A stretch of DNA of 64,000 bases, from contig NZ_JADBDT010000001.1 in the NCBI RefSeq assembly GCF_014873485.1, forward strand, positions 4,272,501-4,336,500, read 5' to 3'. This document shows, one piece after another, positions 19,903 to 37,981 of this stretch. This DNA comes from Sphingopyxis sp. OAS728. GTDB taxonomy: Bacteria; Pseudomonadota; Alphaproteobacteria; Sphingomonadales; Sphingomonadaceae. The position numbers were made by a program, and so were the translations under genes. The notes beneath the pieces are model-generated. The model worked only from the letters and a program-made list of their open reading frames with translations, ran no database searches and had not been told where the DNA came from. The number at the start of each line of letters is the position of its first letter. Position 1 is the stretch's first letter.

Positions 19903-19936
19903 CTGAGAGACATGTTGCGCTCCCGCTCGAAGGAGG
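19903..19936 (+). promoter_or_regulatory. Shared SD-pairing 5' leader, copy 1
   Basis: The leader runs CTGAGAGA ... GCGCTCCCGCT ... GAAGGAGG. GCTCC can pair with the GGAG of the ribosome-binding site. The same leader precedes three other genes in the window (28.2, 21.2 and 37.9 kb). Confidence 0.6.
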
Positions 19937-19944
19937 CGCGCGCG

Positions 19945-20325
19945 ATGTTCAATTCCCGGAGAATTTTGATTGTAGAAGACGAGCCGTTCGTCGTGATCGA
20001 ACTCGTTGAGGCGGTCGAGCGATCGGGAGGCGCGGTCGTCGGCCCCGTTCCAACCGTTGCCGAAGCGCTGGCGCTGCTCGATCAGCACAAGATCGACGCG
20101 GCCATCCTCGACGTCCAGTTGCTCGACGGCGAAATCTCGCCCGTTGCTCTCCGGCTCATCGAGCAGGGCATACCGCTCGTATTTCAGACCGGAACGGGTC
20201 TTCCGGTCGTGCTCGTCGAACTCGATATTGAGTTGGCCGTCGTCCTGAAGCCGGTAGCTCCGATGATCATACTCGAATTGCTGTTGGCCGAGATCATGAG
20301 GCAAACCGCCCGGCAGGTGGGTTAG
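19945..20325 (+). CDS. Single-domain response regulator (CheY-like, stress-associated)
   Basis: This 126-residue receiver domain has no output domain. Residues visible are the acidic pair in ILIVEDEPF, the phospho-acceptor Asp in AAILDVQLLDGE, the Thr in VFQTGTGLP and the Lys in VVLKPVAP. The TG...KP layout resembles the FAT-GUY receivers (SdrG type) that feed the alphaproteobacterial general stress response. The start chosen is the ATG 8 nt after AGGAGG; longer in-frame starts would run through the promoter and leader. It likely passes phosphate between a stress histidine kinase and PhyR, or acts by protein contact; this is inference. An EcfG-type promoter and a shared leader lie upstream. 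Confidence 0.82.
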   Translation: MFNSRRILIVEDEPFVVIELVEAVERSGGAVVGPVPTVAEALALLDQHKIDAAILDVQLLDGEISPVALRLIEQGIPLVFQTGTGLPVVLVELDIELAVVLKPVAPMIILELLLAEIMRQTARQVG

Positions 20326-20400
20326 CGAGATACAAGCGCTATCACGGCGTCAGATTTGCACAGCCGCATCGGACGCGCCATGCTCGCGCGGATTTTGTGG

Positions 20401-20535
20401 TCAGCCATTATCTTTCGGCTTGGCAGTCAACTTCACGGGGGAAGCCTCCCTGGCTGCGAGCGCGGTCGTCGGTTTGGCCTTGGCGGCTTTGGGCTTGCGG
20501 ATCTCGCGATTGCTGCGCTTTTGCGATTTGGCCAT
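20401..20535 (-). CDS. 44-aa basic small protein, copy 1
   Basis: This short gene begins MAKSQKRSNREIRKPKAAK and ends AKPKDNG. It is highly basic (many Lys and Arg) with a conserved N-terminal third, and no signal peptide or membrane segment. A purine-rich AAAGAGAGAAACC precedes the ATG. A paralogue of the same length lies at 36.9 kb, also downstream of the paired 102/75-77-aa genes, so it is a real gene and not chance. The function is unknown; small proteins of this charge often bind RNA, DNA or ribosomes (inference). Confidence 0.75.
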   Translation of the reverse strand: MAKSQKRSNREIRKPKAAKAKPTTALAAREASPVKLTAKPKDNG

Positions 20536-20653
20536 GATGGTTTCTCTCTTTTTGCGGTTGCTGGACGGGAAGACGGGAGGCGGCAGGTCGCGCTGGGAAA
20601 CGCTTTCAGGGGCCGGCTAGTGGCTTCTGCGCGAAGGAGTGCGCGGACACGCG

Positions 20654-20881
20654 TCAATTTTCGTTCGCGGACGGACGATAGAAGCGGTGGCGCACGACGC
20701 TGCCTTCGATCAGGTGACCGCGAAGCCGCAGTCGCATCTCCTCGGCGCCCGCACTCGATGTGCAGACGAGGCGCGTGCCGCCGGACTGAAGCGGTTCGAT
20801 CGCGCTGATGCTGACGCCCTGCGCCAGGCAGACGCGCCTGACCTCCTTTTCGGGCAGAGACAGGTTCATGGCGCGGCTCAT
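20654..20881 (-). CDS. 75-aa unknown protein of small-protein module, copy 1
   Basis: The start MSRAMNLSLPEKEV overlaps the stop of the preceding 102-aa gene (ATGA), and the paralogue at 37.4 kb starts the same way. The sequence holds SISAIEPLQSGGTRLVCTS and a C-terminal EEMRLRLRGHLIEG...HRFYRP. Both paralogues conserve these parts, which looks like a small alpha+beta fold. No known family was recognised. Its fixed coupling to an MbcA/ParS-like gene makes it a candidate functional partner, but it lacks the RES or COG5654 toxin signature. Confidence 0.72.
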   Translation of the reverse strand: MSRAMNLSLPEKEVRRVCLAQGVSISAIEPLQSGGTRLVCTSSAGAEEMRLRLRGHLIEGSVVRHRFYRPSANEN

Positions 20882-21186
20882 TTGGACCGCCGCGTGCTTT
20901 CCCACGCCCGTATAGCGGCCGCCACATGCTCATAACCTTCGGCACTGGCGGTCGCCAGCGCGATCGGGCGGCCTCCCAGTTCCTCATTCTCGGCGTTTAG
21001 AAACGCGATCGCTGCGTCGCGGCCACCCATGACAAAGTAAGCGAGCTGACTGATATCGCCTTGCCGCCGTGCATCCTCAAGTGCGAAGGGCACCCGACTC
21101 TTGCGAAAAAAGCTGTTCGACCGCCCTTTGGTCGGCGCCGGCTCGGCCAGGCCTAGAGTCTCGGCGTTCTGTATGCGTGAAGTCAT
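20878..21186 (-). CDS. 102-aa MbcA/ParS-like (DUF2384-type) protein, copy 1
   Basis: The N-terminal ~35 residues are variable. Then comes FFRKSRVPFALEDARRQGDI, and a C-terminal part with GGRDAAIAFLNAENEELGGR and GYEHVAAAIRAW. That second part matches the pattern of the toxin-binding C-terminal domain of Xre/MbcA/ParS antitoxins (xxAxxFLNxxNxxLGGRP...GxExV). The usual N-terminal Xre helix-turn-helix is not evident. It is translationally coupled to the 75-aa gene and carries the shared SD-pairing leader. An antitoxin-like role is possible but unproven, since no RES toxin is adjacent. Confidence 0.72.
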   Translation of the reverse strand: MTSRIQNAETLGLAEPAPTKGRSNSFFRKSRVPFALEDARRQGDISQLAYFVMGGRDAAIAFLNAENEELGGRPIALATASAEGYEHVAAAIRAWESTRRSK

Positions 21187-21193
21187 GACGCGG

Positions 21194-21226
21194 CTCCTTC
21201 GTAAGCGGGAGCGCGATGTCTCTCAG
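21194..21226 (-). promoter_or_regulatory. Shared SD-pairing 5' leader, copy 3
   Basis: Read leftward: CTGAGAGACAT, CGCGCTCCCGCTTACGAAG, then GAG. A GCTCC/GGAGC stem would cover the ribosome-binding site of the 102-aa gene. Confidence 0.6.
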
Positions 21227-21308
21227 CCGCGACGGCCTACAATGTCCGGTGCCGCGATCTTATGAAGATGGGGGCGATGTCCGAAGATGTAAGATGCAAT
21301 CGGTCCGT

Positions 21309-21359
21309 TGTCCGCTTTTCTTCGTCTGGTCCCCGAAGCGGTCTGACTGCAATCGGCCA
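21309..21359 (+). repeat. 51-nt intergenic repeat, copy C
   Basis: The copy runs from tgtccgctt to aatcggcca. It lies between the DUF2798 gene and the leader of the small-protein module. Confidence 0.85.
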
Positions 21360-21455
21360 ATCGCTGCCCACTTCATTGCCCGCGACGACTTAACGTTCAT
21401 GCTGCTCTTCCGAAATGATGAGATCGCACTTGGCCCACGGCGGACCGAGCTTGAA

Positions 21456-21677
21456 TCAGGTGATAAGCCGGTCGACCTGCGCCTGCAGGCGAGGGCTTAT
21501 CAGCAGGATGGCGGGTATGACGATCGCATAGGCTGTCGCCCAGGAGCGCAACCAGATCGCCACAAAGTCGCTAGAAAGGCCGAGGTTGATCGCGACGAGT
21601 GAGAAGGAGATAATTCCGGTCGTCACTATGCCCATCAGGAGGGCGAACGCGATCTTGCGTTTCATCTGAAGGCTCAT
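21456..21677 (-). CDS. DUF2798 small membrane protein
   Basis: This 73-residue protein has two predicted transmembrane helices: IAFALLMGIVTTGIISFSLV and an AYAIVIPAILLIS segment. The sequence MKRKIAFALLMGIVTTGIISF and the IWLRSWATAYAIVIPA core match the DUF2798 family of small inner-membrane proteins of unknown function. Its ATG overlaps the stop of the upstream hydrolase (ATGA), so it is the last gene of the leftward operon. Confidence 0.78.
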   Translation of the reverse strand: MSLQMKRKIAFALLMGIVTTGIISFSLVAINLGLSSDFVAIWLRSWATAYAIVIPAILLISPRLQAQVDRLIT

Positions 21678-22711
21678 TGTCCGGCTCCCCGAAAATTGGC
21701 AGGCGCGACGTCAATCACCGCCTGGGCAAAGGCTTTGGGAGCCTCCTGCGGCAAGTTGTGGCCGATACCGCCGCTGATATTGCGGTGCGCATAGGGTCCG
21801 GAAAATCTCTTTGCGTAGACCGCCGGCTCGGGATGCGGGGCGCCGTTAGCGTCACCCTCAAGCGTGATTGTCGGTATGGTAATTGCCGGGAACTTAGCAA
21901 GCCTTGCCTCCAGCGCATCATAGGCAGGTTCGCCCTTGCTCAGTCCCAAGCGCCAGCGATAATTGTCGATGACGATTGCGACATGATCCGGATTGTCGAG
22001 CGCGCGGGCCGTCCGGGCGAATGTGGCGTCGTCAAATTGCCAGGTTGGCGAAGCCGTCCGCCAGATCAACTTTGCGAATTCGGCGCGATTAGCGTCGTAT
22101 CCGACGCGACCCCGTTCGGTGGCGAAATAAAATTGGTACCACCAGGAAAGTTCGGCGGCGGGAGGCAGCGGCATCCTGTTGGCCTCCTGGCTGCCGATGA
22201 GATAACCGCTCACCGAGACGAGCGCTGCGCAGCGCTCTGGCCAAAGCGCCGCAACGATGCACGCGGTGCGGGCACCCCAGTCGCAGCCGGCAACGATGGC
22301 CTTGTCGATGCCGAGCGCGTCGAGCAACGCGATCGCATCTGCGGCAAAAGCGGATTGCTGGCCATTACGAGCCTCGTCCTGCGACAGGAAAGTCGTCGTG
22401 CTGAACCCGCGCAAGTAGGGGACGATCACGCGGTAGCCGGAAGCGGCCAGCAGCGGGGTGACCCCCTCATAGCTGTGAATATCGTACGGCCATCCGTGCA
22501 GGAGGAGGACCGGAGGCCCGTGTTTTGGACCCTGCTCGACGAAGCCGATGTCGAGTTTGCCGGCACGGATTTGCTTGACCAGGCCGAATTCGGTCGAGCC
22601 CGCAAAGGGCCGGGCCGGCATGTGTGCCCGGCTGGACCCCCATGCCATTCCGGTGGCGGCGATGGCGAAGCCGAGGAAGTTTCGCCGATTATGTGCGTCC
22701 AGATATGGCAT
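21674..22711 (-). CDS. Alpha/beta hydrolase with Tat signal (epoxide hydrolase-like)
   Basis: This 345-residue protein has an N-terminal twin-arginine motif (NRRNFLGFAIAATG), so folded export to the periplasm is likely. The core has HGWPYDIHSYEGV (oxyanion-hole HGxP), VAGCDWGARTACI with a nucleophile Asp, and a late His in GGIGHNLPQEAP. Asp rather than Ser at the nucleophile elbow points to the epoxide hydrolase/haloalkane dehalogenase branch. It lies between Ohr and DUF2798 in a leftward run, suggesting a role in detoxifying reactive organics. The substrate is unknown. Confidence 0.8.
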   Translation of the reverse strand: MPYLDAHNRRNFLGFAIAATGMAWGSSRAHMPARPFAGSTEFGLVKQIRAGKLDIGFVEQGPKHGPPVLLLHGWPYDIHSYEGVTPLLAASGYRVIVPYLRGFSTTTFLSQDEARNGQQSAFAADAIALLDALGIDKAIVAGCDWGARTACIVAALWPERCAALVSVSGYLIGSQEANRMPLPPAAELSWWYQFYFATERGRVGYDANRAEFAKLIWRTASPTWQFDDATFARTARALDNPDHVAIVIDNYRWRLGLSKGEPAYDALEARLAKFPAITIPTITLEGDANGAPHPEPAVYAKRFSGPYAHRNISGGIGHNLPQEAPKAFAQAVIDVAPANFRGAGQ

Positions 22712-22735
22712 GGGAGGTCTCCTTACATTTCGGGA

Positions 22736-23152
22736 TCAGACGAGGTTGATCTCGACATCGATATTGCCGCGGGTCGCTTTCGAATAGGGGCAGGTCTGGT
22801 GCGCCATATCGACGATAGCCTGCGCCGCCTTGCGCTCGACGCCAGGCAAGCTGACATTGAGGCGTGCTTGGAGCAGATAGGCATCGCCAGCCATTCCAAG
22901 ATCGACCTCGGCATCGATCGCAAGATCGGCGGGGAGTTTTACATCGAGCTTCTTGGCGGCGAGACCCATGGCGCCTTCGAAGCAGGCGGACCAACCTGCG
23001 GCGAACAATTGCTCGGGATTGGTGCCGCTGCCCGGCCCGCCGGGGCTCGACAGCTTCACATCGAGCCTGCCGTCCGAGCTTGCCGACTTGCCATCGCGGC
23101 CTCCGGTGGTGTGGGTCTTGGCGGTGTAGAGAATTTTATCAGGCTTGTTCAT
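22736..23152 (-). CDS. ohr: Organic hydroperoxide resistance protein (Ohr, OsmC family)
   Basis: This is about 138 residues long with the two catalytic cysteines of Ohr: one in AGWSACFEGAMG and one in HQTCPYSKATRGN, the signature that separates Ohr from OsmC. It reduces organic hydroperoxides using lipoylated proteins as electron donor, in the cytosol. The ATG at MNKPDK is preferred because AAAGGA lies 8 nt before it; a second ATG two codons upstream is nearly on top of that site. The usual neighbour OhrR is not adjacent, although a MarR protein with an OhrR-like cysteine lies 24 kb away. Confidence 0.92.
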   Translation of the reverse strand: MNKPDKILYTAKTHTTGGRDGKSASSDGRLDVKLSSPGGPGSGTNPEQLFAAGWSACFEGAMGLAAKKLDVKLPADLAIDAEVDLGMAGDAYLLQARLNVSLPGVERKAAQAIVDMAHQTCPYSKATRGNIDVEINLV

Positions 23153-23188
23153 GATCATATTCCTTTGATGAGGTGGTGGGGCGTTCGT

Positions 23189-24538
23189 TCACTTCCTCTC
23201 GCGCAGGAGACGAAAAGCGGCGCGGATTTCGGCAGCGAACAGCTCGGGCTGTTCCCAGGCGGCGAAATGACCGCCCTTCTCGACCTCGTTCCAGTAGATC
23301 AGCTTCTTGAAGCTCTTCTCGCCCCAGCTGCGCGGCGCGCGATAGATTTCGCCGGGGAAGACGGTGACTGCGACCGGCACCTTGCTAATCTCGATCGCAT
23401 TGAACGGACCGCCGGGGCCTTGGGCTGCGTCCCAATAGCTGCGCGATGACGAGGTTCCTGTGTTGGTCAGCCAGTAAAGGGTGATGTTGTCGAGGATCTC
23501 GTCGCGCGTCAGCACGCTTTCGGGATTGCCGCCGCTGTGCGTCCAGGTGGCGATCTTCTCGTAGAGGAACGCGGCAAGACCGACCGGCGAGTCCGACAGA
23601 CCATAGCCGAGCGTCTGCGGCCGCGTGTTCATCATCTCGGCATATCCGAAGCCTTTGCCGTAAAAGGTTTCGAGACCGGCATAGGCAATCTTCTCCTCAG
23701 CCGAGTAGCTTTCGGGAACCGGCTGTTTGGCACGGACGAGCTTGAGAACGTCCGGCGGCACGGTGCCGGGCATATTCGTGTGGATGCCCAGCAGGCCTTC
23801 AGGGGCCTGAACCGCCAACACCTGCGAAATGATCGCACCCCAGTCACCGCCCTGCGATACATAATTCTTGTACCCAAGGCGCTTCATGAGCACGTCCCAG
23901 GCGCGAGCCACTCGCGCTGGATCCCAGGCCTCGTTCGGCTTTCCCGAAAATCCGTAGCCCGGATAGGTCGGCATGATCAGGTCGAAGGCGTCTTCGGCCT
24001 TGCCGCCATGCGCGGTTGGATCGGTGAGCGGTCCGACGGTTTTGAGGAGCTCGAACGGCGAGCCGGGCCAGCCGTGCGTCATCAGCAGCGGCATTGCCCC
24101 CTTATGCTTCGAGCGGATGTGGATAAACTGGATGTCGACACCGTCGATCGTCGTGATGAACTGGGGCACGGCGTTGAGACGGGCCTCGCCCTTGCGCCAG
24201 TCATAGTCGGTGCCCCAATAGCGCACGAGCGGTTCGAGACGGTCAAGTTGCACACCCTGCGATGCGTCTGCGACCTTTTCGCGGTCAGGCCAGCGCGTCT
24301 CCGCGATGCGCCGACGAAGGTCGGTCAGCGCTTCTTCAGGGATGGCCACGTGGAACGGTCGGATGGACTCATCCTGTGGCGCCGCGGCGACCGCAGCGGT
24401 CGTGGCCGCGATCGGAGTTGCCGAACTGGCGGTGTTGGCGAAGCTCGGGCTCGCCTGAAGCGACATGCCGAGCGCAGCTGCTGAAAGGGCTGTTGCGGAT
24501 AGCAAGCGGCGCAGTGACGTTGAGTTTTTGGGGGACAT
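23189..24538 (-). CDS. Exported epoxide hydrolase (EHN + alpha/beta hydrolase)
   Basis: This 449-residue protein has a cleavable signal peptide (LRRLLSATALSAAALGMSLQ...). The epoxide hydrolase N-terminal domain follows (IRPFHVAIPEEALTDLRRRI, RYWGTDYDWRKGEARLN), then the hydrolase core with HGWPGSPFE (oxyanion hole), SQGGDWGAI (nucleophile Asp), and a terminal WNEVEKGGHFAAWEQPE carrying the general-base His. It resembles bacterial homologues of microsomal and juvenile-hormone epoxide hydrolases, but here targeted to the periplasm. It is upstream of Ohr in the same leftward run. Confidence 0.87.
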   Translation of the reverse strand: MSPKNSTSLRRLLSATALSAAALGMSLQASPSFANTASSATPIAATTAAVAAAPQDESIRPFHVAIPEEALTDLRRRIAETRWPDREKVADASQGVQLDRLEPLVRYWGTDYDWRKGEARLNAVPQFITTIDGVDIQFIHIRSKHKGAMPLLMTHGWPGSPFELLKTVGPLTDPTAHGGKAEDAFDLIMPTYPGYGFSGKPNEAWDPARVARAWDVLMKRLGYKNYVSQGGDWGAIISQVLAVQAPEGLLGIHTNMPGTVPPDVLKLVRAKQPVPESYSAEEKIAYAGLETFYGKGFGYAEMMNTRPQTLGYGLSDSPVGLAAFLYEKIATWTHSGGNPESVLTRDEILDNITLYWLTNTGTSSSRSYWDAAQGPGGPFNAIEISKVPVAVTVFPGEIYRAPRSWGEKSFKKLIYWNEVEKGGHFAAWEQPELFAAEIRAAFRLLRERK

Positions 24539-24572
24539 GATATTTCTCCTGTTTTGATATGAAGGGGGACGC

Positions 24573-25382
24573 TCAGGCGCCTATGGTGGCGGGCCGATAA
24601 CGGTCGGCCGGATGGGTCAGCGACAGATTGGGGAGCATGGCGATCCGTGCCGCTTCGAAAGCATCCCAGGCGGACGTGTCCGGAAGGGCGGGGATCGTGA
24701 CGGTTTCACCGAGATCGAGACCGGCGAGAGCGGCATCGACCATCGCATCGGCCGACATCACGATCTCCGCGGGAACGCCGGAAAGCGGCACACCCGACAG
24801 ATCCCAGAACTCGGTCGCGGTGGCGCCGGGCAGGACGACCTGGACACGTACGCCCTTGTCGGCGAGTTCGGCTTGCAGCGATGCCGTCAGCGCAACCACG
24901 AATGCCTTTGTCGCGCCATAGACCCCGTTGAGCAGAAACTCGGGCGCGATAGCGACGGTCGAGGCGATGTTGATAATCGTGCCGCTGCCCACCGCAGCAA
25001 ATCGCTGCGCAACGGCGTAAGTCAGCCGAGCGAGTGCGGTGGCGTTGATGTCGATCATCGCCTCCATTTGGTCGACATCGGCCTGCCACGTCGGGACGGG
25101 CGCGCCGATGCCGGCGTTGTTCACGAGCATCGTGATGCGGCGGTCATTGATGAGGCGCGCCTCGATTAGCCGCAGCTCGCCCGGATTGGACAAATCGGCC
25201 GATAGCGTTTCGACGCTGCGGCCGGTCGCTTCGCGGATTGCTTTCGAGACCTTGTCGAGATTGGCGGCGCTGCGCGCCACCAGGAGCAGATCATAGCCAC
25301 GACGGGCCAGACGGTCGGCATAGATCGCACCGATACCGGCGGAGGCGCCGGTGATGAGCGCAGTGCCCTTTACTTCGTTCAT
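24573..25382 (-). CDS. Short-chain dehydrogenase/reductase
   Basis: This classical SDR of 269 residues has the Rossmann motif TGASAGIGA at about residues 9-17, NNAGIG, a Ser in NIASTVAI, and the catalytic YGATK. The start is the ATG at MNEVKG; an upstream ATG five codons earlier is less well placed. It probably reduces or oxidises a small carbonyl or alcohol with NAD(P)H. It lies immediately after the LysR gene and before the epoxide hydrolase, a common pairing of LysR with its target SDR. Confidence 0.87.
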   Translation of the reverse strand: MNEVKGTALITGASAGIGAIYADRLARRGYDLLLVARSAANLDKVSKAIREATGRSVETLSADLSNPGELRLIEARLINDRRITMLVNNAGIGAPVPTWQADVDQMEAMIDINATALARLTYAVAQRFAAVGSGTIINIASTVAIAPEFLLNGVYGATKAFVVALTASLQAELADKGVRVQVVLPGATATEFWDLSGVPLSGVPAEIVMSADAMVDAALAGLDLGETVTIPALPDTSAWDAFEAARIAMLPNLSLTHPADRYRPATIGA

Positions 25383-25514
25383 CGCTCTTCCTTTCAAGAA
25401 GGTTGGGATGCCGACCGACCGACGTGATCGGGGCGACCAGAACGATTTAGAGGGTTGGGAGAATGCCGGTAGAAAGGGAAACCGAGAGCAAGCCTCTCAT
25501 TTCCGCCATGTTGG

Positions 25515-26417
25515 TCAGGCGCAGTCGAGTCCCGTACATGCGACGCGAAGGCGTGGTGCGGCCCAGTCGATGAAGGCGCGCACCTTGAGCGGAAGCAGGC
25601 CTTGGCGCGGATAAACGATATGGACGGGACGGAGCTCGCCATCGGCATCGGGAAAGAGCCGCACCAGCGTGCCCGACCGGATATGCTCCGATACCTGATA
25701 ATCGAAGAGGCGCGCGACCCCCACGCCGCCGAGCGCGGCCGCGAGATTTCCAGCGGCGCTGTTGACCGTCACTCGTGCGCGCGGCAAGCACATCACGTCC
25801 TCGTCTTCGACGCGATAACCCCAGAACATCGGCAGCGGTCCGAACAGGATTCCGTCATGTTGAGGAAGGTCGCGCGGGCCGGACGGTGTCCCGCACCGTT
25901 CCAGATAGGCCGGGCTGGCGCAGGTGATCAGTCGAAATTCTCCCGCCTTGACTGCAAAGAGCGCGCTGTCCGGTAGATGACCGAGCCGGATCGCGACATC
26001 GACATGCTCATCGACCATATGCACCAGCCGGTCGGAGGTGACGAGTTTGAGGGTGACCTCGGGATATTCCTCGATGAAGGCGAGCGCGATCGGGATGACG
26101 TGCCGCACGCCGAACTCGATCGGCATGGTGATCGACAACTCGCCGCGGGGCGTCTGATACTCTCCCGAGGCCCGTCGTTCGGTTTCTTCCAAGTCCGCAA
26201 TGATACGTCGTGCTGCCTCGACATAGTCGCGGCCCGCATCGGTCAACTGAATGTTGCGGCTCGTCCTGACGAACAGATTGGTTCCAAGATACCGCTCGAG
26301 TTCAGCGACCTTGCGACTGACGCTGGGCAACGGAGACCCAAGGGCGCGGCTACCCGCTGACAGGCTGCCGGCATCGACGACCGCCAGAATGACCCGCATG
26401 GCGTCCAGCCGATCCAT
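25515..26417 (-). CDS. LysR-family transcriptional regulator
   Basis: This 300-residue protein has an N-terminal winged helix-turn-helix (MDRLDAMRVILAVVDAGSLS, RALGSPLPSVSRKVAELERY) and a C-terminal periplasmic-binding-like effector domain (GELSITMPIEFGVRHVI onward). It is the first gene of the leftward cluster, so it is likely the regulator of the downstream SDR/epoxide hydrolase/Ohr genes. The effector is unknown. Some sphingomonad relatives sit next to SDR genes they control, which fits. Confidence 0.88.
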   Translation of the reverse strand: MDRLDAMRVILAVVDAGSLSAGSRALGSPLPSVSRKVAELERYLGTNLFVRTSRNIQLTDAGRDYVEAARRIIADLEETERRASGEYQTPRGELSITMPIEFGVRHVIPIALAFIEEYPEVTLKLVTSDRLVHMVDEHVDVAIRLGHLPDSALFAVKAGEFRLITCASPAYLERCGTPSGPRDLPQHDGILFGPLPMFWGYRVEDEDVMCLPRARVTVNSAAGNLAAALGGVGVARLFDYQVSEHIRSGTLVRLFPDADGELRPVHIVYPRQGLLPLKVRAFIDWAAPRLRVACTGLDCA

Positions 26418-26545
26418 TTGCTCCTTCTCCCGCCCCGAGCAGAGGTGAATAGCCGACTTCGGGAGATCAACATAGCTTCATGCGCGGCGCCAAATTGATA
26501 CGCGCCCGCGTATATGTCCGCCCTTGAGCTGCGCGGCTTGCTCGA

Positions 26546-26596
26546 TGTCCGCTTTTGCCGACTTCGCGCCCAAAGCCGCCAGTCCGCAAGCGGCCA
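26546..26596 (+). repeat. 51-nt intergenic repeat, copy D
   Basis: The copy runs from tgtccgctt to aagcggcca, 178 bp before the Mrr-like nuclease gene. With copy E it brackets that gene. Confidence 0.88.
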
Positions 26597-26774
26597 AAAG
26601 GGATGATCGACCGGCAGCCGGTGTCCGCCTGCGAACGAAACAACCTAGGCGTCAGCTGCTATCCAGATGGCTCTCGTTGGCGGAGCGTGCAGGTCAACGT
26701 CGATCGCTGGGTGACTCGAGGCCAATCTGCCGTCATGGAACGTTGTTGACACGAATTGCGCATCGGGCGACGCA

Positions 26775-27761
26775 GTGGCTATGCTCGACTTTAAGGAACT
26801 TCCATCGGACGGTGTCCGCTTCGAACAGCTTATCCGGGAGATGCTCATCCGGAGCGGGTTTGAGGTGCATTGGACCGGTGTGGGGCCTGACGGTGGGCGC
26901 GACCTCGTCGCGACCGAGCGGGCAACGGGGATGCTCGCATCCTTCTCCCGCAAGTGGCTGGTGAGCTGCAAGCACAAGGCGCATGGGGGCGGTTCGGTCG
27001 GCCTTCCCGACGTCATCGACATCGTCGATGCATGCGGTGCTGTGGATGCAGAGGGTTATCTTCTAGCATGTTCAACCCAGCCGTCGTCTGGCGTCGTGAA
27101 GCGGCTCGAGGAACTGCAACGGAGCGGCAAGATCCTCACTACGTTTTGGGACGGCGTAGAGATCGAGAAGCGCCTCAATATCCCAGAGCTTTTCCCGCTG
27201 GTCCACCAATTCATGCCTGAGAGCGCGAAAGCGCAGCCTTGGAAGATCTATGCAACTCAGGCGCCGTCGGTGTGGGCGGCCAACTACAAGGATTATTTCC
27301 TCTACATGAGCTGCCGGATCGGGCACTCCTTTCCTGCCCTTACCGAAGTAGAGGCAATTGCGGCCAAGCTCGAATCTATCGCGTTACCAGGTAATGGCTG
27401 GACCAAGCACCATCTCCGCCTTCGCGCTGTATTTTACGACGACAAGCATGAGCAGTTCAGTGTCTTCGTCGATTACCTATATCCCAAAACTGACATGAAG
27501 ACGGTATTATCGCCTAGTGCGATTGATGCTGTCCTTAAAACCGGGCGAGGTCTCCACTCGGATGGTACGGGCGAATGGTATCAGACACATTGGGACGTTC
27601 GGTACGTAGCCACCGATCCCTACAGCGACCGGTTCCAAGTCGACAGCGCCGAATATTATGAAAACTCGATGTCGAGCTTCACGGTTGGATCTTCCAGGGA
27701 GGGCTGGATCGATGAGATTGATGACCCCAACGATCCTGACAACATATTTCTGGAGTTTTAG
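26775..27761 (+). CDS. Stand-alone restriction-endonuclease-fold (Mrr-like) protein
   Basis: This 328-residue protein has an N-terminal PD-(D/E)XK-type domain: FEQLIREMLIRSGFEVHWTG, then GPDGGRDLVA with the catalytic Asp, then WLVSCKHKAHGG with the Lys. Mrr enzymes usually have Q-x-K at the last motif; here Ser replaces Gln. The rest of the domain (VDAEGYLLACSTQPSSGVVK, FWDGVEIEKRL) matches nuclease-like proteins that act alone. The C-terminal ~170 residues are unrecognised. The GTG start is followed two codons later by an ATG that may be the true start. No methyltransferase is adjacent, so it could be a methyl-dependent nuclease or phage-defence protein (inference). It is bracketed by two 51-nt repeats. 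Confidence 0.72.
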   Translation: MAMLDFKELPSDGVRFEQLIREMLIRSGFEVHWTGVGPDGGRDLVATERATGMLASFSRKWLVSCKHKAHGGGSVGLPDVIDIVDACGAVDAEGYLLACSTQPSSGVVKRLEELQRSGKILTTFWDGVEIEKRLNIPELFPLVHQFMPESAKAQPWKIYATQAPSVWAANYKDYFLYMSCRIGHSFPALTEVEAIAAKLESIALPGNGWTKHHLRLRAVFYDDKHEQFSVFVDYLYPKTDMKTVLSPSAIDAVLKTGRGLHSDGTGEWYQTHWDVRYVATDPYSDRFQVDSAEYYENSMSSFTVGSSREGWIDEIDDPNDPDNIFLEF

Positions 27762-27905
27762 ACTGATTGGCAACAGAAGCGGATACTGCCGGGCGGCTTC
27801 GCGCCGCAGCGATGACAGGTTTCGGGAGAGGCGGCCGTCCAAATCGCTGCTGGAGAACGACGGGCTCTGGTCGCGAGCTGTCATTCTCGCTCCACAGGTT
27901 GCGAA

Positions 27906-27957
27906 CGTCCGCTTCTCGAGGCCTCCCGCCTAGAAGCTGTCAGTCCGCAACCGGCCA
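27906..27957 (+). repeat. 51-nt intergenic repeat, copy E (52 nt)
   Basis: The copy runs from cgtccgctt to aaccggcca. It carries one extra base relative to most copies and lies just past the nuclease gene. Confidence 0.85.
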
Positions 27958-27990
27958 ATGTTTGTGATGACGCTCCAGCAACATGGGCAA

Positions 27991-28016
27991 AAGGGCTTCG
28001 CTACCGCGAAGCCCTT
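27991..28016. terminator. Perfect 11-bp stem-loop
   Basis: AAGGGCTTCGC and GCGAAGCCCTT pair around a TACC loop. Read leftward the stem ends in TTTT, so it could terminate leftward transcription. Read rightward there is no U-tract. Confidence 0.55.
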
Positions 28017-28052
28017 CCATCCTCTGCGTTCGTGACCAAAGGAAAGCCCCAT

Positions 28053-28079: not shown

Positions 28080-28232
28080 CTGCCGGTCCAACGCTAGGCC
28101 TATTCCGAAGGAAGTCGAGACATATGACTTGGCTCTCGTCGGTCGGCTACAATTATAAATGTCTGCTCATTGCAATCGGAAGCCTGTGACCCCACTTCCA
28201 TAGCATCGCCCGCTTCCACCGCGTGCTGGCGA

Positions 28233-28263
28233 CTGAGAGACCATTGCGCTCCCGCTGAAGGAG
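28233..28263 (+). promoter_or_regulatory. Shared SD-pairing 5' leader, copy 2
   Basis: CTGAGAGACCATTGCGCTCC followed by CGCTGAAGGAG. GCTCC can pair with GGAGC around the ribosome-binding site of the 203-aa gene. Confidence 0.6.
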
Positions 28264-28271
28264 CAAAGATC

Positions 28272-28883
28272 ATGGACCTCAACCAACTTCTCCACCACCA
28301 TCAGATGGCGTTGATGGCCGTGAGCCAGGCGCGACGCGATGGGCAGGCGATGCCAAACTTTGACCTGCCGCGCTATTATGCCAAACGGATCAACGAATAT
28401 CGCGAGCGGCGCGGCTTGAGCGGCGATGCCGAGGCTATCGCCGATCTCGCCGTATCAACTGCGGGTGCCTTTGAAGCGCCGGACGATCTGGTCAGTGACG
28501 TACTGATCGCCGAATTGCTCATGGCGAAGGCCTTCGAAAAGGCGACACACCAACATCGGGCTGCCGGAAGCGACGGAGCTGACGATCCGGTCGTCGATAT
28601 TCGCGCCACCCTTCTGGCCGTCGGGCGCGACTTTTATCGCTCGCTGGGCGTGGAGGACGGCCCTCTCGCCGCCGCGATCGATGAAGCTGCGTCACGCTCG
28701 GCGTGGGAAGGCGAAGGCGGAGGCCTGCGTCCACCGGGCGACGAGGAGGATGGCATCATCCGGACCTATGTCGAACAATTCGCGGTGGGCGACTATCGCT
28801 ATTCGAACCTTGCCGATGCCAAAGCCGCCGCGCGGCGGCAGCGGGACGCGGCGAGCGACGGGCGCGGAGCGACGCCTGCATGA
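28272..28883 (+). CDS. 203-aa protein of unknown function
   Basis: The start is the ATG 8 nt after AAGGAG. The protein is soluble and acidic, with an N-terminal helix (MDLNQLLHHHQMALMAVSQA), a central helical part (DAEAIADLAVSTAGAF) and a C-terminal QFAVGDYRYSNLADAKAAAR. No signal peptide, membrane segment or known family was recognised. It is translationally coupled (ATGA) to the HAD phosphatase. It carries the same leader as the response regulator and the two MbcA/ParS-like genes, so it is probably induced with them under stress (inference). Confidence 0.75.
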   Translation: MDLNQLLHHHQMALMAVSQARRDGQAMPNFDLPRYYAKRINEYRERRGLSGDAEAIADLAVSTAGAFEAPDDLVSDVLIAELLMAKAFEKATHQHRAAGSDGADDPVVDIRATLLAVGRDFYRSLGVEDGPLAAAIDEAASRSAWEGEGGGLRPPGDEEDGIIRTYVEQFAVGDYRYSNLADAKAAARRQRDAASDGRGATPA

Positions 28884-32093: not shown

Positions 32094-32100
32094 GGGGAAT

Positions 32101-33384
32101 ATGGTGCATCTGGTACAGGATGAATTGCGGCTCCATGCCGACCCGACGCGCGTCGTCGTGCGGCCCTTTCACCTCGCATGGCAAGCATCGGGTCCCGATC
32201 TCGAGCGCGTACAGCGGTTGGCCCGCGAAATCGTGACGCTCGACACGCGCACCGTGCGCGCCGAGCTCAGCGTGGTGCTGCGCGATTTCGCCGACCGGCA
32301 CTGGCAGATCGAGAAGGTGTTCGAGGATCGCTTCGAGCAGATCGAACCCAAACTTGGTCTCGAAGGCCTCACATTGAAGCGCGAGATGCGCCTCTTGATC
32401 GGCGCCTATTTCTGTCACGAATATAGCTATGCCGCGGCGGCGCTGATGAACCCCAGCGTCGTTCGTCATCCCGACCAGACCGGGCTGGAGGAAGGATGCA
32501 TCCGCATCCTCCTGTCGCTGCGCGCTGTCGGCGAGGGTCATATTTCGACGATCGCCTTTCGCGAGGGAATCATTACCTGCGACCGCGAACTGACGCTGCT
32601 GCCGCAGCCCGCCTTCGCTACGGCGGCGATGCTTGGTCCGCACCGCGACGACAAGCCCGACGATGTTGTCTCGCTCTATCGGCAGAAGGACAGCACTCTT
32701 TCGGGCACGGTGATCTTCCCGATCACCGAGGCGCAGCGCAACGGGCTCGAGGATCTGCGGCTGCTCGAGTTCGAGCGCGATAGCGGCAAAAGCGAATGGA
32801 TCGGGACCTACACCGCCTATAGCGGGCGAGACATCCAGTCCGAGCTGCTACGGACGCGCGATTTCAGGGATTTCACGCTGAGCCCGATCAAGGGAAAGGC
32901 GGGACGCAACAAGGGCATGGCGTTGTTCCCGCGCAAGATCGACGGGCAATTCTGCATGATCGGTCGGCAGGATGGCAAGAATCTCTATCTGCTGCGCTCG
33001 GACACGGTCGATCAGTGGGAGGACGGCGAATTATTGCTGGAGCCGCGCTTTCCATGGGAACTCATCCAGATCGGCAATTGCGGCGCGCCGATCGAACTCG
33101 ACGAGGGCTGGCTGGTGTTGACCCATGGGGTCGGCGCGATGCGCAAATATGCGATCGGTGCTGTACTGCTCGACAAGGACGATCCCTCGAAGGTGATCGG
33201 CCGGACGCCCAATCCGATCCTGTCCGCCGCCGACGAGGACCGCGAAGGCTATGTTCCCAATGTCGTCTACACCTGTGGAGCGATCCGCGTCGGCGACGAT
33301 ATTTTCCTGCCCTACGGGGTGGCCGACAGTTCGGTCTGCTTTGCGTTCGTCGCGATCAAGGAGATTCTGGCCGCCATGGCCTAG
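32101..33384 (+). CDS. GH130-family glycosidase / phosphorylase
   Basis: This 427-residue five-bladed beta-propeller enzyme has GLEDLRLLEFE (cf. G-E-D-P-R of the family), GNCGAPIELDEGWLVLTHG and a terminal NVVYTCGAIRVGDDIFLPYG with VADSSVCFAF. GH130 members phosphorolyse or hydrolyse beta-mannosides. Here the usual Pro after ED is Leu, so the substrate may differ. The gene starts 7 bp after the GT4 fusion stop and is co-transcribed with it. It has no signal peptide, so it acts in the cytoplasm, probably on the oligosaccharide made by its neighbour. Confidence 0.85.
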   Translation: MVHLVQDELRLHADPTRVVVRPFHLAWQASGPDLERVQRLAREIVTLDTRTVRAELSVVLRDFADRHWQIEKVFEDRFEQIEPKLGLEGLTLKREMRLLIGAYFCHEYSYAAAALMNPSVVRHPDQTGLEEGCIRILLSLRAVGEGHISTIAFREGIITCDRELTLLPQPAFATAAMLGPHRDDKPDDVVSLYRQKDSTLSGTVIFPITEAQRNGLEDLRLLEFERDSGKSEWIGTYTAYSGRDIQSELLRTRDFRDFTLSPIKGKAGRNKGMALFPRKIDGQFCMIGRQDGKNLYLLRSDTVDQWEDGELLLEPRFPWELIQIGNCGAPIELDEGWLVLTHGVGAMRKYAIGAVLLDKDDPSKVIGRTPNPILSAADEDREGYVPNVVYTCGAIRVGDDIFLPYGVADSSVCFAFVAIKEILAAMA

Positions 33385-33452
33385 CGGCACGCAACATAAG
33401 GCGAAGCGGCGGATTGTAGGAGTGTCGCCTTCCGCGGCAGAAGGAATGACCG

Positions 33453-35603
33453 ATGCCGAAATCTCCGCCGCCGTCGCCCGCGAACGACCAGGCCCTTCGC
33501 GAACACCAGCCGGGCGGAGGTCAGCCGAAGATCGAGGTGAGCCGCGGCAATGGTGGCGAGCTGCACCAGAATCTGGCATCGGGCGACAAATCGGCCGATG
33601 CGGCGTTCCTGACCGACAATTTCGGCCACCGGATTTCGGACAACCAGAATTCGCTGCGCGCCGGCGAACGCGGGCCGACGCTGCTCGAGGACTTTGTCCT
33701 TCGCGAGAAAATCTTCCACTTCGACCATGAGCGTATTCCCGAACGCATCGTCCACGCCCGCGGTTCGGGCGCGCATGGTGTGTTCGAATGCACCAAGGCG
33801 ATCCCCGGGCTGACCAAGGCGTCGATCCTGCAGAAGGAGGGCGCGACTTGTCCGGTCTTCGTCCGCTTCTCGACGGTCGCGGGCGGCGCCGGATCGGTCG
33901 ACACCCCGCGCGATGTGCGTGGCTTCGCGGTCAAGCTCTACACCGACAGCGGCAACTGGGACCTTGTCGGCAACAATATTCCGGTCTTCTTCATCCAGGA
34001 CGCGATGAAATTCCCCGACCTCGTTCACAGCGTCAAGATGGAAGCCGACCGCGGTTATCCGCAGGCGGCGAGCGCGCATGACACCTTCTGGGACTTCATC
34101 GGGCTGATGCCCGAGGCGATGCACATGATCATGTGGGCGATGTCCGACCGCACGATCCCGCGGAGCCTGCGCATGATCGAGGGTTTCGGCGTCCACGCCT
34201 TCCGCTTCGTCAACGAAAAGGGCGAAGGCAAATTCGTCAAATTCCACTGGAAACCCGTGCTCGGCATCCAGTCGACGACATGGGACGAGGCGGTCAAGAT
34301 CGCCGGCGCCGATCCCGATTTCCATCGCCGCGACCTGTTCGAGGCGATCGATGCGGGCGACTTCCCGGCATGGGATCTCGGCGTGCAGGTGTTCGACGAA
34401 GCTTTCGCCGAGAAGCAGCCTTATGACGTGCTCGACGCGACCAAGCTGATCCCGGAGGAGGATGTTCCGGTCGAGATCGTCGGCCGCATGACGCTCAACC
34501 GCAACGTCGACAATTTCTTTGCCGAGACCGAACAGGTCGCCTTTCTGCCGTCGAACATCATTCCGGGCATCGATTTCAGCAACGACCCACTCCTTCAGGG
34601 CCGGCTCTTTTCCTATCTTGACACGCAGAAGTCGCGGCTGGGCACGACCAATTTCCACCAGATCCCGATCAATGCGCCGAAATGCCCGTTCCACAATTTC
34701 CAGCGCGACGGGATGATGCAGACGCTCGTGCCAACGGGGCGCGCCAATTACGAGCCGAACAGCCTGGCCGAGGCCGGCGAGAATGGCGGTCCGCGCGCAA
34801 GCGCCGATACGGGTTTCAAGAGCTTTGCCGCCAATGACGAACGCAACGATCCCGCGCAGAAGCTGCGCATTCGCGCGGCGCTTTTCGCCGATCATTTCAG
34901 CCAGGCGCGCATGTTCTACCTGTCGCAGACCGAGAATGAGCAGGCGCATATCGCCTCGGCGCTGGTGTTCGAATTGTCGAAGGTCACGCTCGATCATATC
35001 CGCGCCCGCGTCGTCGGCCAGCTTCGCAACATCGATGAGGATCTCGCGACGCGTGTCGCCATGGGGCTCGCCATCGATCTGCCGGCGAAGGAAAAGGCTG
35101 CGCGGGCGCCGGTCGATCTCAAAACGTCCGACGCGCTGTCGATCCAGAAGAATGCCGACGATACGATGGAGGGCCGCAAGGTCGCGATCCTCTTTGCCGA
35201 AGGATCGGACAAGGCGGTGATCGACAAGCTGAAGGGCGACATCGAAAGCGCCGGCGGCACCGCCTTCCTCGTCGCGCCGAAGGTCGGCGGGATCAAGGTT
35301 AAGGGCGGCACGCTCAAGGCCGACGGCCAGCTGGCAGGCTCGCCCTCGGTGCTGTTCGACGCCGTGGCTTCGATCCTGACCGAAGAACAGGCCAAGGCGC
35401 TGTCGGGGCAGGGCGCGGCGGTCCAGTGGTTCATGGACGCTTATGGCCATTGCAAGACGATCGCGCATGACGAGGCGACGCAGTTGCTGCTCGACAAGGC
35501 AGGGGTGGAAAAGGACGGCGGGGTCGTTGCGATCGACGAGTTCGAAAGCGTCGGCACCCGGCGCCATTGGGCCCGCGAAGCCAAGGTGCGCGATCTTGCC
35601 TGA
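33453..35603 (+). CDS. katE: Large-subunit catalase, HPII/KatE type
   Basis: This 716-residue haem catalase belongs to clade II. Visible are the catalytic His in [13 protein letters not shown], the Asn in [19 protein letters not shown], the proximal haem Tyr in [14 protein letters not shown], and the C-terminal flavodoxin/DJ-1-like domain ([20 protein letters not shown] ...) that distinguishes large-subunit catalases from the ~480-residue small ones. It breaks hydrogen peroxide to water and oxygen in the cytosol, typically in stationary phase or stress. It follows GH130 in the same direction, supporting a stress-island reading of this block. Confidence 0.95.
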
Positions 35604-35612
35604 TCGCCCGTC

Positions 35613-36848
35613 ATGGTGAGCCGCGCATCGGCGACCCATCATCGCGATCTCCGGACCGGCCAGTCGATCTGGTCGGCTCGGCGTCGTCCGTCCATCGAGG
35701 AAAAACCGCTGACCGGCGATGTCGCGTGCGACATTGTGGTGGTCGGCGCTGGAATATCGGGTGCGCTGATCGCCGAGCAGTTGTCCGACGCGGGGTTCGA
35801 TGTCCTCATCGTCGACCGCCGCGGCCCCACGGACGGGTCGACCGCGGCCTCGACCGCTATGTTGCAATATGAGATCGACATGCCGCTCCATCGAATGGCC
35901 GACCGGATCGGTCGCGACAAAGCCGAACGCATGTGGCGCCGCTCGCGCCAGTCGGTCGACGCGCTGCGCGAACGGACCGAAAGGCTCGGCCTCGATGTCG
36001 ATGGCGCGACGCGCGGCTCGATCTATCTCGATGGCAATGTGCTCGACGCGGCGGGGCTTGCGCGCGAAGCCGAGGCGCGGCGCCGGGCCGGATTTGAAAT
36101 CGAATTGCTCAAACCCGCACAAGTCGAGGATCGCTACGGCATCAAGGGCCGGCATGCGATCATCGGCTACGGCAATTATTCGGCCGATCCACGCCGCCTC
36201 GCCGCAGGCTATCTGAACGTTGCGATTTCGCGCGGTGCACGGCTCTACGCCCCGGTCGATATTTGCGACGTCGCTCCCTCCGAGGCGGTCGTCACGCTCC
36301 GTTCCAAAAACGGACCTGCCATCCGCGCCAAACATCTCGTCGTGGCGACGGGCTATGAGATGATGAAGGGCATTCCGCGCAAGGGAAACAGGATCATCTC
36401 GAGCTGGTCGATCGCCACGCGCCCGCAGCCCCGCGCCATCTGGCCGACCGCGGCGATGATATGGGAAGCGGCCGACCCCTATCTCTACATCCGGACCACC
36501 CCGCGCGGAGAAATCATCTGCGGCGGCGAGGATGAGGAAATAGCCGATGCGGCGCTCCGCGACGCCAAGCTCCTCGACAAGGCGACGACGCTGTCGCGAA
36601 AGCTTGCTGCCCTGCTGCCAGGAGTGGACGCGACGCCCGCGTATAGCTGGGCCGGCAGTTTCGGCGACAGCCCGGTCGGGACACCGACCATCGGCCGCAT
36701 TCCCGGCATGCCGAACTGCTATGCGGCGATGGGATATGGCGGAAACGGGATCACCTTCTCGATGATGGCGGCGCAGATGCTGCGCGGCGTGATTTGCGGT
36801 TATGGCGATCCCGACGCCGATCTGGTCAGCTTTCACCGCAGTTTTTGA
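35613..36848 (+). CDS. FAD-dependent oxidoreductase (DAO family)
   Basis: This 411-residue enzyme has a dinucleotide-binding motif VVVGAGISGALIAEQLSDAG near residue 42, GSTAASTAMLQYEID, and a C-terminal GYGGNGITFSMMAAQMLRG that closes on FAD. It belongs to the D-amino-acid oxidase/GlpD-like family; the substrate cannot be told. Such genes often lie beside katE, which would remove the hydrogen peroxide they make. The start codon is 9 bp after the catalase stop. Confidence 0.87.
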   Translation: MVSRASATHHRDLRTGQSIWSARRRPSIEEKPLTGDVACDIVVVGAGISGALIAEQLSDAGFDVLIVDRRGPTDGSTAASTAMLQYEIDMPLHRMADRIGRDKAERMWRRSRQSVDALRERTERLGLDVDGATRGSIYLDGNVLDAAGLAREAEARRRAGFEIELLKPAQVEDRYGIKGRHAIIGYGNYSADPRRLAAGYLNVAISRGARLYAPVDICDVAPSEAVVTLRSKNGPAIRAKHLVVATGYEMMKGIPRKGNRIISSWSIATRPQPRAIWPTAAMIWEAADPYLYIRTTPRGEIICGGEDEEIADAALRDAKLLDKATTLSRKLAALLPGVDATPAYSWAGSFGDSPVGTPTIGRIPGMPNCYAAMGYGGNGITFSMMAAQMLRGVICGYGDPDADLVSFHRSF

Positions 36849-36855
36849 CGGCGCG

Positions 36856-36990
36856 TCAGCGATTGCCTTTCGGCTTGGCGGTCATCTGCACGGCAGACGC
36901 CTCTTGGGCTGCGAGCGCGGTTGGCGGCTTCGCCTTGGCGGCCTTGGGTTTGCGAATCTCGCGATTGCTGCGTTTTTGCGATTTGGCCAT
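36856..36990 (-). CDS. 44-aa basic small protein, copy 2
   Basis: It begins MAKSQKRSNREIRKPKAAK, identical to copy 1 over this part, and ends TAKPKGNR. The two 44-aa proteins differ at about nine positions, all in the second half. Same strand and same relative place downstream of the 77/102-aa pair. Function unknown. Confidence 0.78.
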   Translation of the reverse strand: MAKSQKRSNREIRKPKAAKAKPPTALAAQEASAVQMTAKPKGNR

Positions 36991-37037
36991 GTCAGATATC
37001 TTTCTTCGGTTTCAGGATGCGCGTGTTCGCGAACGTG

Positions 37038-37226
37038 CTAGCGAGCCGTTTGCGTCCGCAATCTGTTGAGCGGAAAATAAGGGCGATGCTGATAGGGAAA
37101 GGCCTTCAGACGCCGACGGATATCTTCGATCAGGCGCCCATGTCGGTCGATCGCCGAAGGATTTGTCGCGGCGGCGTATCGTACGAGCGCAATCTGCTCG
37201 TCTTCGAGCAATTGAATGAGGCACAT
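37038..37226 (-). CDS. 62-aa hypothetical protein within the second module
   Basis: The ATG (MCLIQLLEDEQIALVRYAAA) has a strong AGGAG 8 nt upstream. The C-terminal half is basic (IRRRLKAFPYQHRPYFPLNR). It lies between the 44-aa and 77-aa genes and has no counterpart in the first module. No family was recognised. A short amphipathic N-terminal helix is likely. Confidence 0.55.
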   Translation of the reverse strand: MCLIQLLEDEQIALVRYAAATNPSAIDRHGRLIEDIRRRLKAFPYQHRPYFPLNRLRTQTAR

Positions 37227-37399
37227 CGTGTGTGCTCCTGCATCAAGCGAGAGCACGGATCGTCCCTCTGTCACATGGAGCTTGTTCGATTTCAGGTGAT
37301 GGGATGACTATAGCACATCCCGAGAAATGTGCGGCACGAATACCGATATTATTCGAGTTCGGCAGAGACGTTCGCACACCGCGGAATCTCGCTCCGGCC

Positions 37400-37633
37400 T
37401 CATGGCCATTCCTGCGTGGCCGGAGGGCGATAGAAGCGGTAACGGAGGACATTGCCATCGATCAGGTGACCGCGGAGCCGAAGGCGCATTTCCTCGGCGC
37501 CGGAGCCGGATGTGCAGACAAGGCGGGTACCGCCCGACTGAAGCGGCTCGATCGCACTGATGCTGACACCTTGCAGAAGACATAGGCGCTTAACCTCGTC
37601 CTCCGGTAGCGAAATGTTCATCGCGCGGCTCAT
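37400..37633 (-). CDS. 77-aa unknown protein of small-protein module, copy 2
   Basis: It starts MSRAMNISLPEDEVKRLCLL and holds SISAIEPLQSGGTRLVCTSG and RLRLRGHLIDGNVLRYRFYR. It is clearly paralogous to the 75-aa protein at 20.7 kb. The ATG overlaps the stop of the 102-aa gene (ATGA), the same coupling as in copy 1. Confidence 0.75.
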   Translation of the reverse strand: MSRAMNISLPEDEVKRLCLLQGVSISAIEPLQSGGTRLVCTSGSGAEEMRLRLRGHLIDGNVLRYRFYRPPATQEWP

Positions 37634-37938
37634 TTGAATCCTGGGCCGCTCGGCCAGCGGCGGATCGCTGCCGCAACCCGTTCATATCCCTCGGGGCTCG
37701 CGGTCGCGACTGTAAGCGGGCGGCCGCCGAGCGCGGCGTTGTCGGTGTTCAGGAAGGCTATCGCCGGATCCCGTCCGCCCATCGTCAAGAAGGCGAGCTG
37801 ACTGATGTCCCCTTGGCGCCGTGCGTCATCAAGGGGGAATGGACTGCGGCTCTTGCGGAAAAATCGGCTCGATTGCGGTCTCAATCGGACAGGCACGTCC
37901 GGGGTGGCCGACTGGGATTGATCTGGATCGGGGGGCAT
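37630..37938 (-). CDS. 102-aa MbcA/ParS-like (DUF2384-type) protein, copy 2
   Basis: It has the same length as copy 1. The N-terminal ~30 residues differ (MPPDPDQSQSATPDVPVRLR). FFRKSRSPFPLDDARRQGDI and GGRDPAIAFLNTDNAALGGR plus GYERVAAAIRRW are conserved. The conserved part fits the toxin-binding domain of Xre/MbcA/ParS antitoxins; no RES toxin is near. It has the shared leader and a tandem partner gene. Confidence 0.74.
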   Translation of the reverse strand: MPPDPDQSQSATPDVPVRLRPQSSRFFRKSRSPFPLDDARRQGDISQLAFLTMGGRDPAIAFLNTDNAALGGRPLTVATASPEGYERVAAAIRRWPSGPGFK

Positions 37939-37946
37939 GGGCGCGG

Positions 37947-37981
37947 CTCCTGCTTGTAAGCGGGAGCACGAGGTCTCTCAG
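37947..37981 (-). promoter_or_regulatory. Shared SD-pairing 5' leader, copy 4
   Basis: Read leftward: CTGAGAGACCTCGTGCTCCC then GCTTACAAGCAGGAG. Here GCTCC can pair with GGAGC as in the other copies. Confidence 0.6.

Follow-up and report, generated by a model that had tools for sequence, protein, structure and literature searches.

In a 64,000-nucleotide (nt) stretch of the Sphingopyxis sp. OAS728 genome (contig NZ_JADBDT010000001.1, positions 4,272,501 to 4,336,500; hereafter the window), we analysed a short leader that recurs before the start codons of several genes, and found that it probably acts in cis as a leader RNA, some 75 nt long, that controls translation, an undescribed switch with OFF as its default and a junction as its likely sensing site. 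This reading comes from sequence comparison and predicted folding. A first hairpin (P1) would form at the 5' end, followed by the single-stranded junction word CUGAGAGAC, a linker of 4-9 nt and a second hairpin (P2), in which GCUCC(C) would pair with the Shine-Dalgarno (SD) sequence GGAG(C). The P1 loop GUAGGC would kiss the P2 loop GCYUAC, which would lock P2 shut and leave CUGAGAGAC accessible as a junction, and a factor recognising this junction may open or tighten the lock and thereby set the translation of small proteins and a few regulators. The OFF default and the control by a factor are what we infer, and we can only guess in which direction the control runs.

Leader copies in the window and the home genome

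The original prediction, made from the window alone, placed the same leader before four genes. In the window, the joint pattern CTGAGAGAC-N1-8-GCTCCCGCT is confined to 19903 (plus), 21226 (minus), 28233 (plus) and 37981 (minus), each time directly 5' of the start codon of the gene named there. When the window was shuffled 100 times with its dinucleotides preserved, the pattern never appeared. Single words, with one mismatch allowed, were at chance level in the window, and the significance rests on the joint pattern, which with a spacer of N1-10 occurs nowhere else in the 4.92-Mb home genome besides these four sites. A looser pattern gave two extra home-genome copies outside the window, at C1:4494089 (plus) and C1:2287208 (minus). 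Covariance model R1 (71 positions and 11 pairs, built from 18 leaders including window copy D) detected seven home-genome copies at E 0.001 or better, including a further window copy (E). The four copies were thus correct and their count too low, since the window holds five and the home genome seven. The copies and their genes are as follows:

19842..19866, plus: EcfG-type promoter of copy A (GGAAC 19842-19846, 16-nt spacer, CGTT 19863-19866), at the same offset from P1 as other EcfG-like boxes
19874..19937, plus: leader copy A, R1 36.6 bits (P1 strands about 19877-19882 and 19896-19901; CTGAGAGAC 19903-19911; GCTCC 19919-19923; GGAG 19932-19935)
19945..20325, plus: single-domain response regulator of 126 amino acids (aa) behind copy A, PF00072 31.8 bits (cut-off 30.2)
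20878..21186, minus: 102-aa MbcA/ParS-like protein behind copy B, PF09722 23.8 bits, just under the cut-off of 24.5
21192..21259, minus: leader copy B, R1 57.4 bits, with a clear putative kissing contact UUGUAGGC/GCUUACGA
28204..28265, plus: leader copy C, R1 45.0 bits, one P1 mismatch
28272..28883, plus: 203-aa protein of MDLNQLL type behind copy C, member of a 73-protein cluster
37038..37226, minus: 62-aa open reading frame (ORF; MCLIQLLEDEQIALVRYAAA...) behind copy E, resembling MDLNQLL proteins by eye only and forming its own cluster
37233..37301, minus: leader copy E, overlooked in the original prediction, weaker at R1 27.9 bits (window E-value 6.2e-6), one P1 mismatch
37630..37938, minus: 102-aa MbcA/ParS-like protein behind copy D, paralogue of the 20878 gene, PF09722 23.6 bits, under the cut-off of 24.5
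37945..38015, minus: leader copy D, R1 74.5 bits, a score to be read with its place among the 18 sequences on which R1 was built

Copy E has the core CAGAGGGAC, and its GUGCUC is able to pair with GAGCAC around the SD. For the response regulator behind copy A, the nearest NCBIfam models were PRK13435 and the PhyR receiver, both far under their cut-offs. The 203-aa protein matched no Pfam or NCBIfam family and the 62-aa ORF no Pfam family. Outside the window, the C1:4494089 copy precedes the gene for a 213-aa relative of the 203-aa protein, and the C1:2287208 copy precedes a Crp/Fnr gene. In the latter copy (L006:2671-2740 = C1:2287170-2287239, minus), a T run (GGGAGCTTTTTTTG) stands right after P2, which could double as a terminator; such a run was not seen in the other Crp/Fnr copies inspected by eye.

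A chance repeat was rejected on the shuffles and on a reversed control, which gave 0 places against 81, and a repeat or mobile element was judged unlikely because ATG stands at a fixed distance 3' of the leader and P1 covaries. Plasmids searched with leader D and the gene behind it gave no match. The five window leaders lie within 18 kb, and similar clustering, with three to four model matches per 8-kb locus, was observed in loci L040, L042, L028, L088, L070 and L106.

The first hairpin covaries and precedes start codons

A conserved AUC lies 5' of CUGAGAGAC, and the bases after it are complementary to the bases ending two nt before CUGAGAGAC, which together make up P1. In a model-free scan, a helix of at least 7 pairs ending at -2 was found in 59 of 123 leaders, compared with 407 of 2435 controls with swapped upstream pieces. 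Alignments were made of 78 leaders (A4), of 125 distinct rows (A6) and of 101 distinct rows from other loci, some of them from overlapping or repeated genomes (A7). In A6, all 161 two-sided-change cells counted over P1 and P2 fell in P1, against 47.9 (standard deviation (sd) 5.4) in shuffles, and the P1 covariation score was 0.392, against 0.159 (sd 0.009) in shuffles and 0.012-0.078 with slid partners. In A7, there were 130 two-sided P1 cells against 30.5, and the score was 0.413 against 0.154, with slid partners at 0.009-0.073. The stem named in the original prediction, P2, varies little and could not have carried the case; the decisive covariation was found in the overlooked P1, together with the loop-loop contact described below.

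R1 gave 231 matches, 214 of them unique, and a usable start codon was nearby in 207 of the 214. As these start codons had been picked with a preference for long ORFs and for spacings of about 5 nt, ATG spacings were counted again without that preference. Over 212 elements, ATG was found at 3-6 nt after the element 137 times, whereas each position beyond had about 2-3. Comparison of the leaders thus demonstrates P1 as a covarying helix, its position before start codons and its spread.

The leader had also been taken as non-coding, and this held: the lengths from CTGAG to GGAG in 159 leaders were spread over all three frames (remainders 0, 1 and 2 modulo 3 in 43, 56 and 60), and copy C has an in-frame stop, so that a coding leader was rejected. 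The spacings vary, with a linker of 4-9 nt and a P2 loop of 7-18 nt.

The loops of the two hairpins are complementary

The P2 loop opens with six bases (GCYUAC) complementary to the six that end the P1 loop (commonly GUAGGC). The loop complementarity score was 12.7, against 10.7 (sd 0.22) when the P2 loops were re-dealt among the 112 leaders. From the unique R1 matches, 196 were parsed and 195 tested for kissing. The P1 loop ends in GC in 122 of the 195, and in these the four variable pairs form in 111, 109, 105 and 87 elements, compared with shuffle expectations of 99.1, 100.1, 85.2 and 70.0; the observed values were reached by none of 1000 shuffles. We also divided the leaders into a rhizobial set (63 leaders, mostly Hyphomicrobiales, assigned by hand from their labels, with L196 placed by guess and the Armatimonadetes-labelled L026 included) and a set of all the remaining ones (149 leaders, including Caulobacter, Rubellimicrobium and the Chloroflexota-labelled L065). 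Outside the rhizobial set (74 of the 122), the observed values were reached by 0-5 of 1000 shuffles; within it (48 of the 122), one pair was uninformative and the others were reached by 25, 3 and 0 of 1000. In the window, the predicted contact has 8 pairs in copy B (G-U included), 7 in copy D (GUAGGCG/CGCUUAC) and 5 in copy E. A kissing contact between the P1 and P2 loops is thus well supported by the comparison of the loops.

The second hairpin and the Shine-Dalgarno sequence

The complementarity of GCUCC and GGAG, on which the original prediction was built, is present in all four of its copies (copy A without the fifth pair, at the base after GGAG), and it makes up only half of the structure. 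Masking of the SD was borne out by predicted folding, in a set selected for both P2 words: the median probability that the SD is unpaired at 37 °C was 0.007, against 0.256 after the sequence around the SD was shuffled. In a search without the SD, GGAG lay 4-20 nt after GCTCC in 73 of 81 leaders, compared with 385 of 3095 GCTCC words outside the elements, and several of the eight remaining leaders have GGGA, GGAA or AGGA. As an SD is expected before a start codon anyway, this enrichment is not independent proof of P2.

Covariation in P2 is thin because both of its strands served as search bait. A7 contains four two-sided P2 cells, of which the closing pair holds two and two different inner pairs hold the others (L193:250 and L199), and the P2 change in L028:6172 is a wobble plus a mismatch in the model register and hence not two-sided. 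The kissing contact supports P2 as well, because it involves the P2 loop. The pairing of GCUCC with the SD is therefore supported more weakly than the other parts of the fold.

The junction word

Conservation of the junction word was checked free of the bait in 55 model matches that do not fit it. In these elements, CTGAGAGAC was found in 13 and CTGAGAGAT in 11, and in the rest most differences fall at the second letter or among the last ones. Most of the word's conservation is kept. Variation of this kind might be that of a recognised core. A Bradyrhizobium subgroup has the junction word ATGAGAACG in place of CTGAGAGAC (L062:2789-2860, L073:5576-5648 and L106:1228-1304).

Observations that weigh against the proposed fold

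Several results speak against the structure or narrow its support. A6 and A7 were both fitted to the R1 structure, which favours that structure, and the model-free scan gave the same helix. Six P1 pairs show any two-sided change in A6, a count reached by 57 of 500 shuffles, and no P2 pair in A6 shows one. Selection with the two P2 words as bait accounts for part of their conservation and of the predicted SD masking. Single-sequence folds of four leaders were no stabler than shuffles (z -0.96 to 0.40), and some window copies prefer other folds when folded singly. In 37 further elements the kissing register is shifted by two, and there only one of the four variable pairs, formed in 28 elements compared with 15.0 expected, beats the shuffles. 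In the window, the contact is poor in copy A, with 5 pairs of which two are G-U, and unconvincing in copy C, with 3 pairs.

Promoters and the start of the transcript

Aligned on P1, the leaders show two promoter signals at a fixed distance to it, the -35 signal spanning about -34 to -29 and the -10 signal about -12 to -7. With the promoter in this position the RNA should begin near AUC, and the transcript probably starts at or near this conserved triplet.

One copy had been linked to the general stress response through an EcfG-type promoter. Copy A does carry GGAAC-N16-CGTT, and an EcfG-like box, defined as [GT]GAAC-N15-18-GTT, precedes 13 of the 63 leaders in the rhizobial set and 4 of the other 149, with 0-1 in controls; the link thus holds for copy A and for a minority of the leaders overall. 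The boxes lie 30-34 nt before P1, and in the rhizobial set 12 of 13 are at -32 to -30 and one at -61. A first, strict test had found 3 in 123 leaders against 1 in the control. EcfG was rejected as the whole explanation, and the minority share of the boxes indicates that the leader is used with more than one promoter type. Single-domain response regulators are described as hubs of the general stress response (PMC5964349, PMC6599016), and the regulator behind copy A may take part in it.

Spread across genomes and the genes behind the leader

A scan of contigs with the pattern CTGAGAGACN{4,9}GCTCCCGCN{2,15}GGAG returned at least 120 stretches. Among the matches listed, 116 of 120 stretches were by their labels from Alphaproteobacteria, with the genera Sphingomonas, Novosphingobium, Sphingopyxis, Sphingobium, Erythrobacter relatives, Bradyrhizobium, Methylobacterium, Microvirga, Rhodoplanes, Hyphomicrobium, Mesorhizobium, Caulobacter, Rubellimicrobium and others, and two were from metagenome-assembled genomes labelled Armatimonadetes (L026, 66.5 bits) and Chloroflexota (L065, 23.3 bits). 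These two are likely mislabelled bins, or in the case of L065 a chance match. A looser structural pattern matched in 71 of 199 genomes of the home family (105 places), with 2 places in the reversed control. With R1, we found copies in 16 of 39 home-family genomes and, under strict filters with 20 candidates scored per genome, in 9 of 240 class-wide genomes, the home genome being counted in both; 19 genomes chosen for already carrying a leader had 2-9 copies each (E up to 0.01). In another 41 genomes of the class under strict filters, three had a match, and two of the three places repeat sequences already found. Pattern scans and the covariance model thus agree with the original expectation that the leader stands before other genes in related genomes.

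Among the 202 complete ORFs behind the leaders, 166 are shorter than 110 aa, and the median length is 71 aa. By single linkage they form 71 clusters, many with a single member and mostly of uncharacterised small proteins; Pfam was run on some members per cluster only. The cluster sizes include 73 (MDLNxLYxxHQ), 13 (DTFLGRK), 13 (the DUF6894 group, a label that rests on one Pfam-tested member), 11 and 3 (Crp/Fnr), 7 (MbcA-like), 7 (MSRAMN) and 5 (response regulators), and a cold-shock-domain protein is found among the others. The earlier view that the leader is conserved as an RNA before non-homologous genes is upheld.

Small paralogous ORFs follow both MbcA-like genes of the window (20654-20905 and 37308-37583, both minus), and MSRAMN-type proteins, which are similar to them, stand directly behind a leader elsewhere, for example in L066 and L081. 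A phage-integrase-family ORF (PF00589, 38254-38925, plus) adjoins leader D, and an integrase-like ORF, recognised by eye, lies near the seventh home-genome copy (L005:5303-5932). Upstream of leader C, the ORF at 26775-27761 (plus) has a restriction endonuclease domain of Mrr type (PF04471).

What the leader may respond to

The leaders have a conserved core joined to an expression platform, as a riboswitch does: the junction word, the covarying P1 and the SD hairpin, the conservation of the word being partly due to the bait. Among the factors that might act on the junction, we favour a small molecule, while holding it short of an even chance, and place an RNA-binding protein after it, as a lesser possibility. 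We tentatively propose a new alphaproteobacterial riboswitch class, in which kissing hairpins around CUGAGAGAC would sense a stress-linked small molecule or second messenger. If this is true, the class would add a translational layer over housekeeping and EcfG promoters, switching the translation of scattered uncharacterised small proteins, single-domain response regulators and Crp/Fnr regulators.

It is rather unlikely that no factor acts and that the fold is a fixed brake, which keeps translation low and protects the 5' end without any signal. The strong predicted masking (in the set selected for both strands), the place of P1 near the probable 5' end and the lack of a known regulator are what such a brake would show, whereas an unpaired core and a loop-loop contact that are both conserved would exceed its needs.

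A trans-acting small RNA pairing with CUGAGAGAC or GCUCCCGC is unlikely as well. A conserved single-stranded word does adjoin the SD, and the words are common to unrelated genes; however, P1 and the co-conserved loops would not be required, and a search of both strands of the home genome with the two-word pattern returned only the leaders, so that no RNA complementary to both words was seen, with one-word seeds outside this search.

The original prediction also raised a thermosensor, in which P2 melts on warming and frees the SD, as in ROSE or fourU elements, and this simple form was not upheld. The SD would indeed lie inside a hairpin, the window has a ROSE element at another place and one leader precedes a cold-shock-domain protein. 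In contrast, the predicted exposure of the SD in 159 leaders stays near zero, with medians of 0.003 at 15 °C, 0.007 at 37 °C and 0.016 at 55 °C (nearest-neighbour folding, which leaves out the kissing contact), isolated P2 averages -9.0 kcal/mol, and simple melting gives the conserved CUGAGAGAC no role, so that an RNA thermometer appears very improbable. That the leader is a DNA element, an operator or part of a promoter, is hardly credible: the EcfG-like boxes do stand at a near-fixed distance before P1 and exceed their controls, whereas most leaders have promoters of another kind, the -10 signal lies upstream of the conserved words, the linker and P2-loop spacings vary and P1 covaries.

For the translational switch that we consider probable, a single RNA module before many unrelated small genes would define a regulon invisible to protein-based annotation in soil- and plant-associated bacteria. 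Its signal, once identified, would give a first functional handle on the MDLNxL, DUF6894 and DTFLGRK small-protein families together and could reveal a translational branch of the alphaproteobacterial stress response.

Comparison with known systems

The leaders tested gave no match to any Rfam 15 family, either at the gathering cut-off (the window and 17 loci) or at E up to 10 (window copies A, B, D and E and 11 further loci), copy C being covered by the gathering search only. No description of the element was found in open-licence PubMed Central (PMC) text, where a subscription paper or preprint may have been missed, and among the matches listed there for the 9-letter leader word, the titles point to unrelated primer or probe sequences.

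The nearest element found in the literature is the odc1 motif (PMC8632094), which has another fold and another gene. Like our leaders, it is a leader found in Alphaproteobacteria, has conserved bases and sequesters the ribosome site; it differs in having one extended hairpin, an upstream ORF and a tie to ornithine decarboxylase, and no ornithine decarboxylase gene was seen among the downstream ORFs read.

The heat-shock thermometer ROSE (RF00435) is likewise an alphaproteobacterial 5' leader that hides the SD, and the window contains one copy (55623-55726, minus, 45.6 bits against a cut-off of 45), which stands before a gene and is unrelated to the leaders. The leaders do not match RF00435, are predicted not to melt and have two putatively kissing hairpins with a conserved junction word.

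Translational riboswitches with loop-loop contacts, such as guanidine-II, combine a masked ribosome site with two hairpins whose loops interact; compared with these, the leaders have other conserved bases, no Rfam match and downstream genes without a common pathway. The thiamine pyrophosphate (TPP) riboswitch contains CUGAGA, a word also present in the leaders, whereas the leaders tested have no Rfam match to it. With the EcfG regulon, the leaders share the EcfG-like boxes of a minority of copies and, at copy A, a gene for a single-domain response regulator, while most leaders stand behind other promoters and the leader itself would be a post-transcriptional feature.

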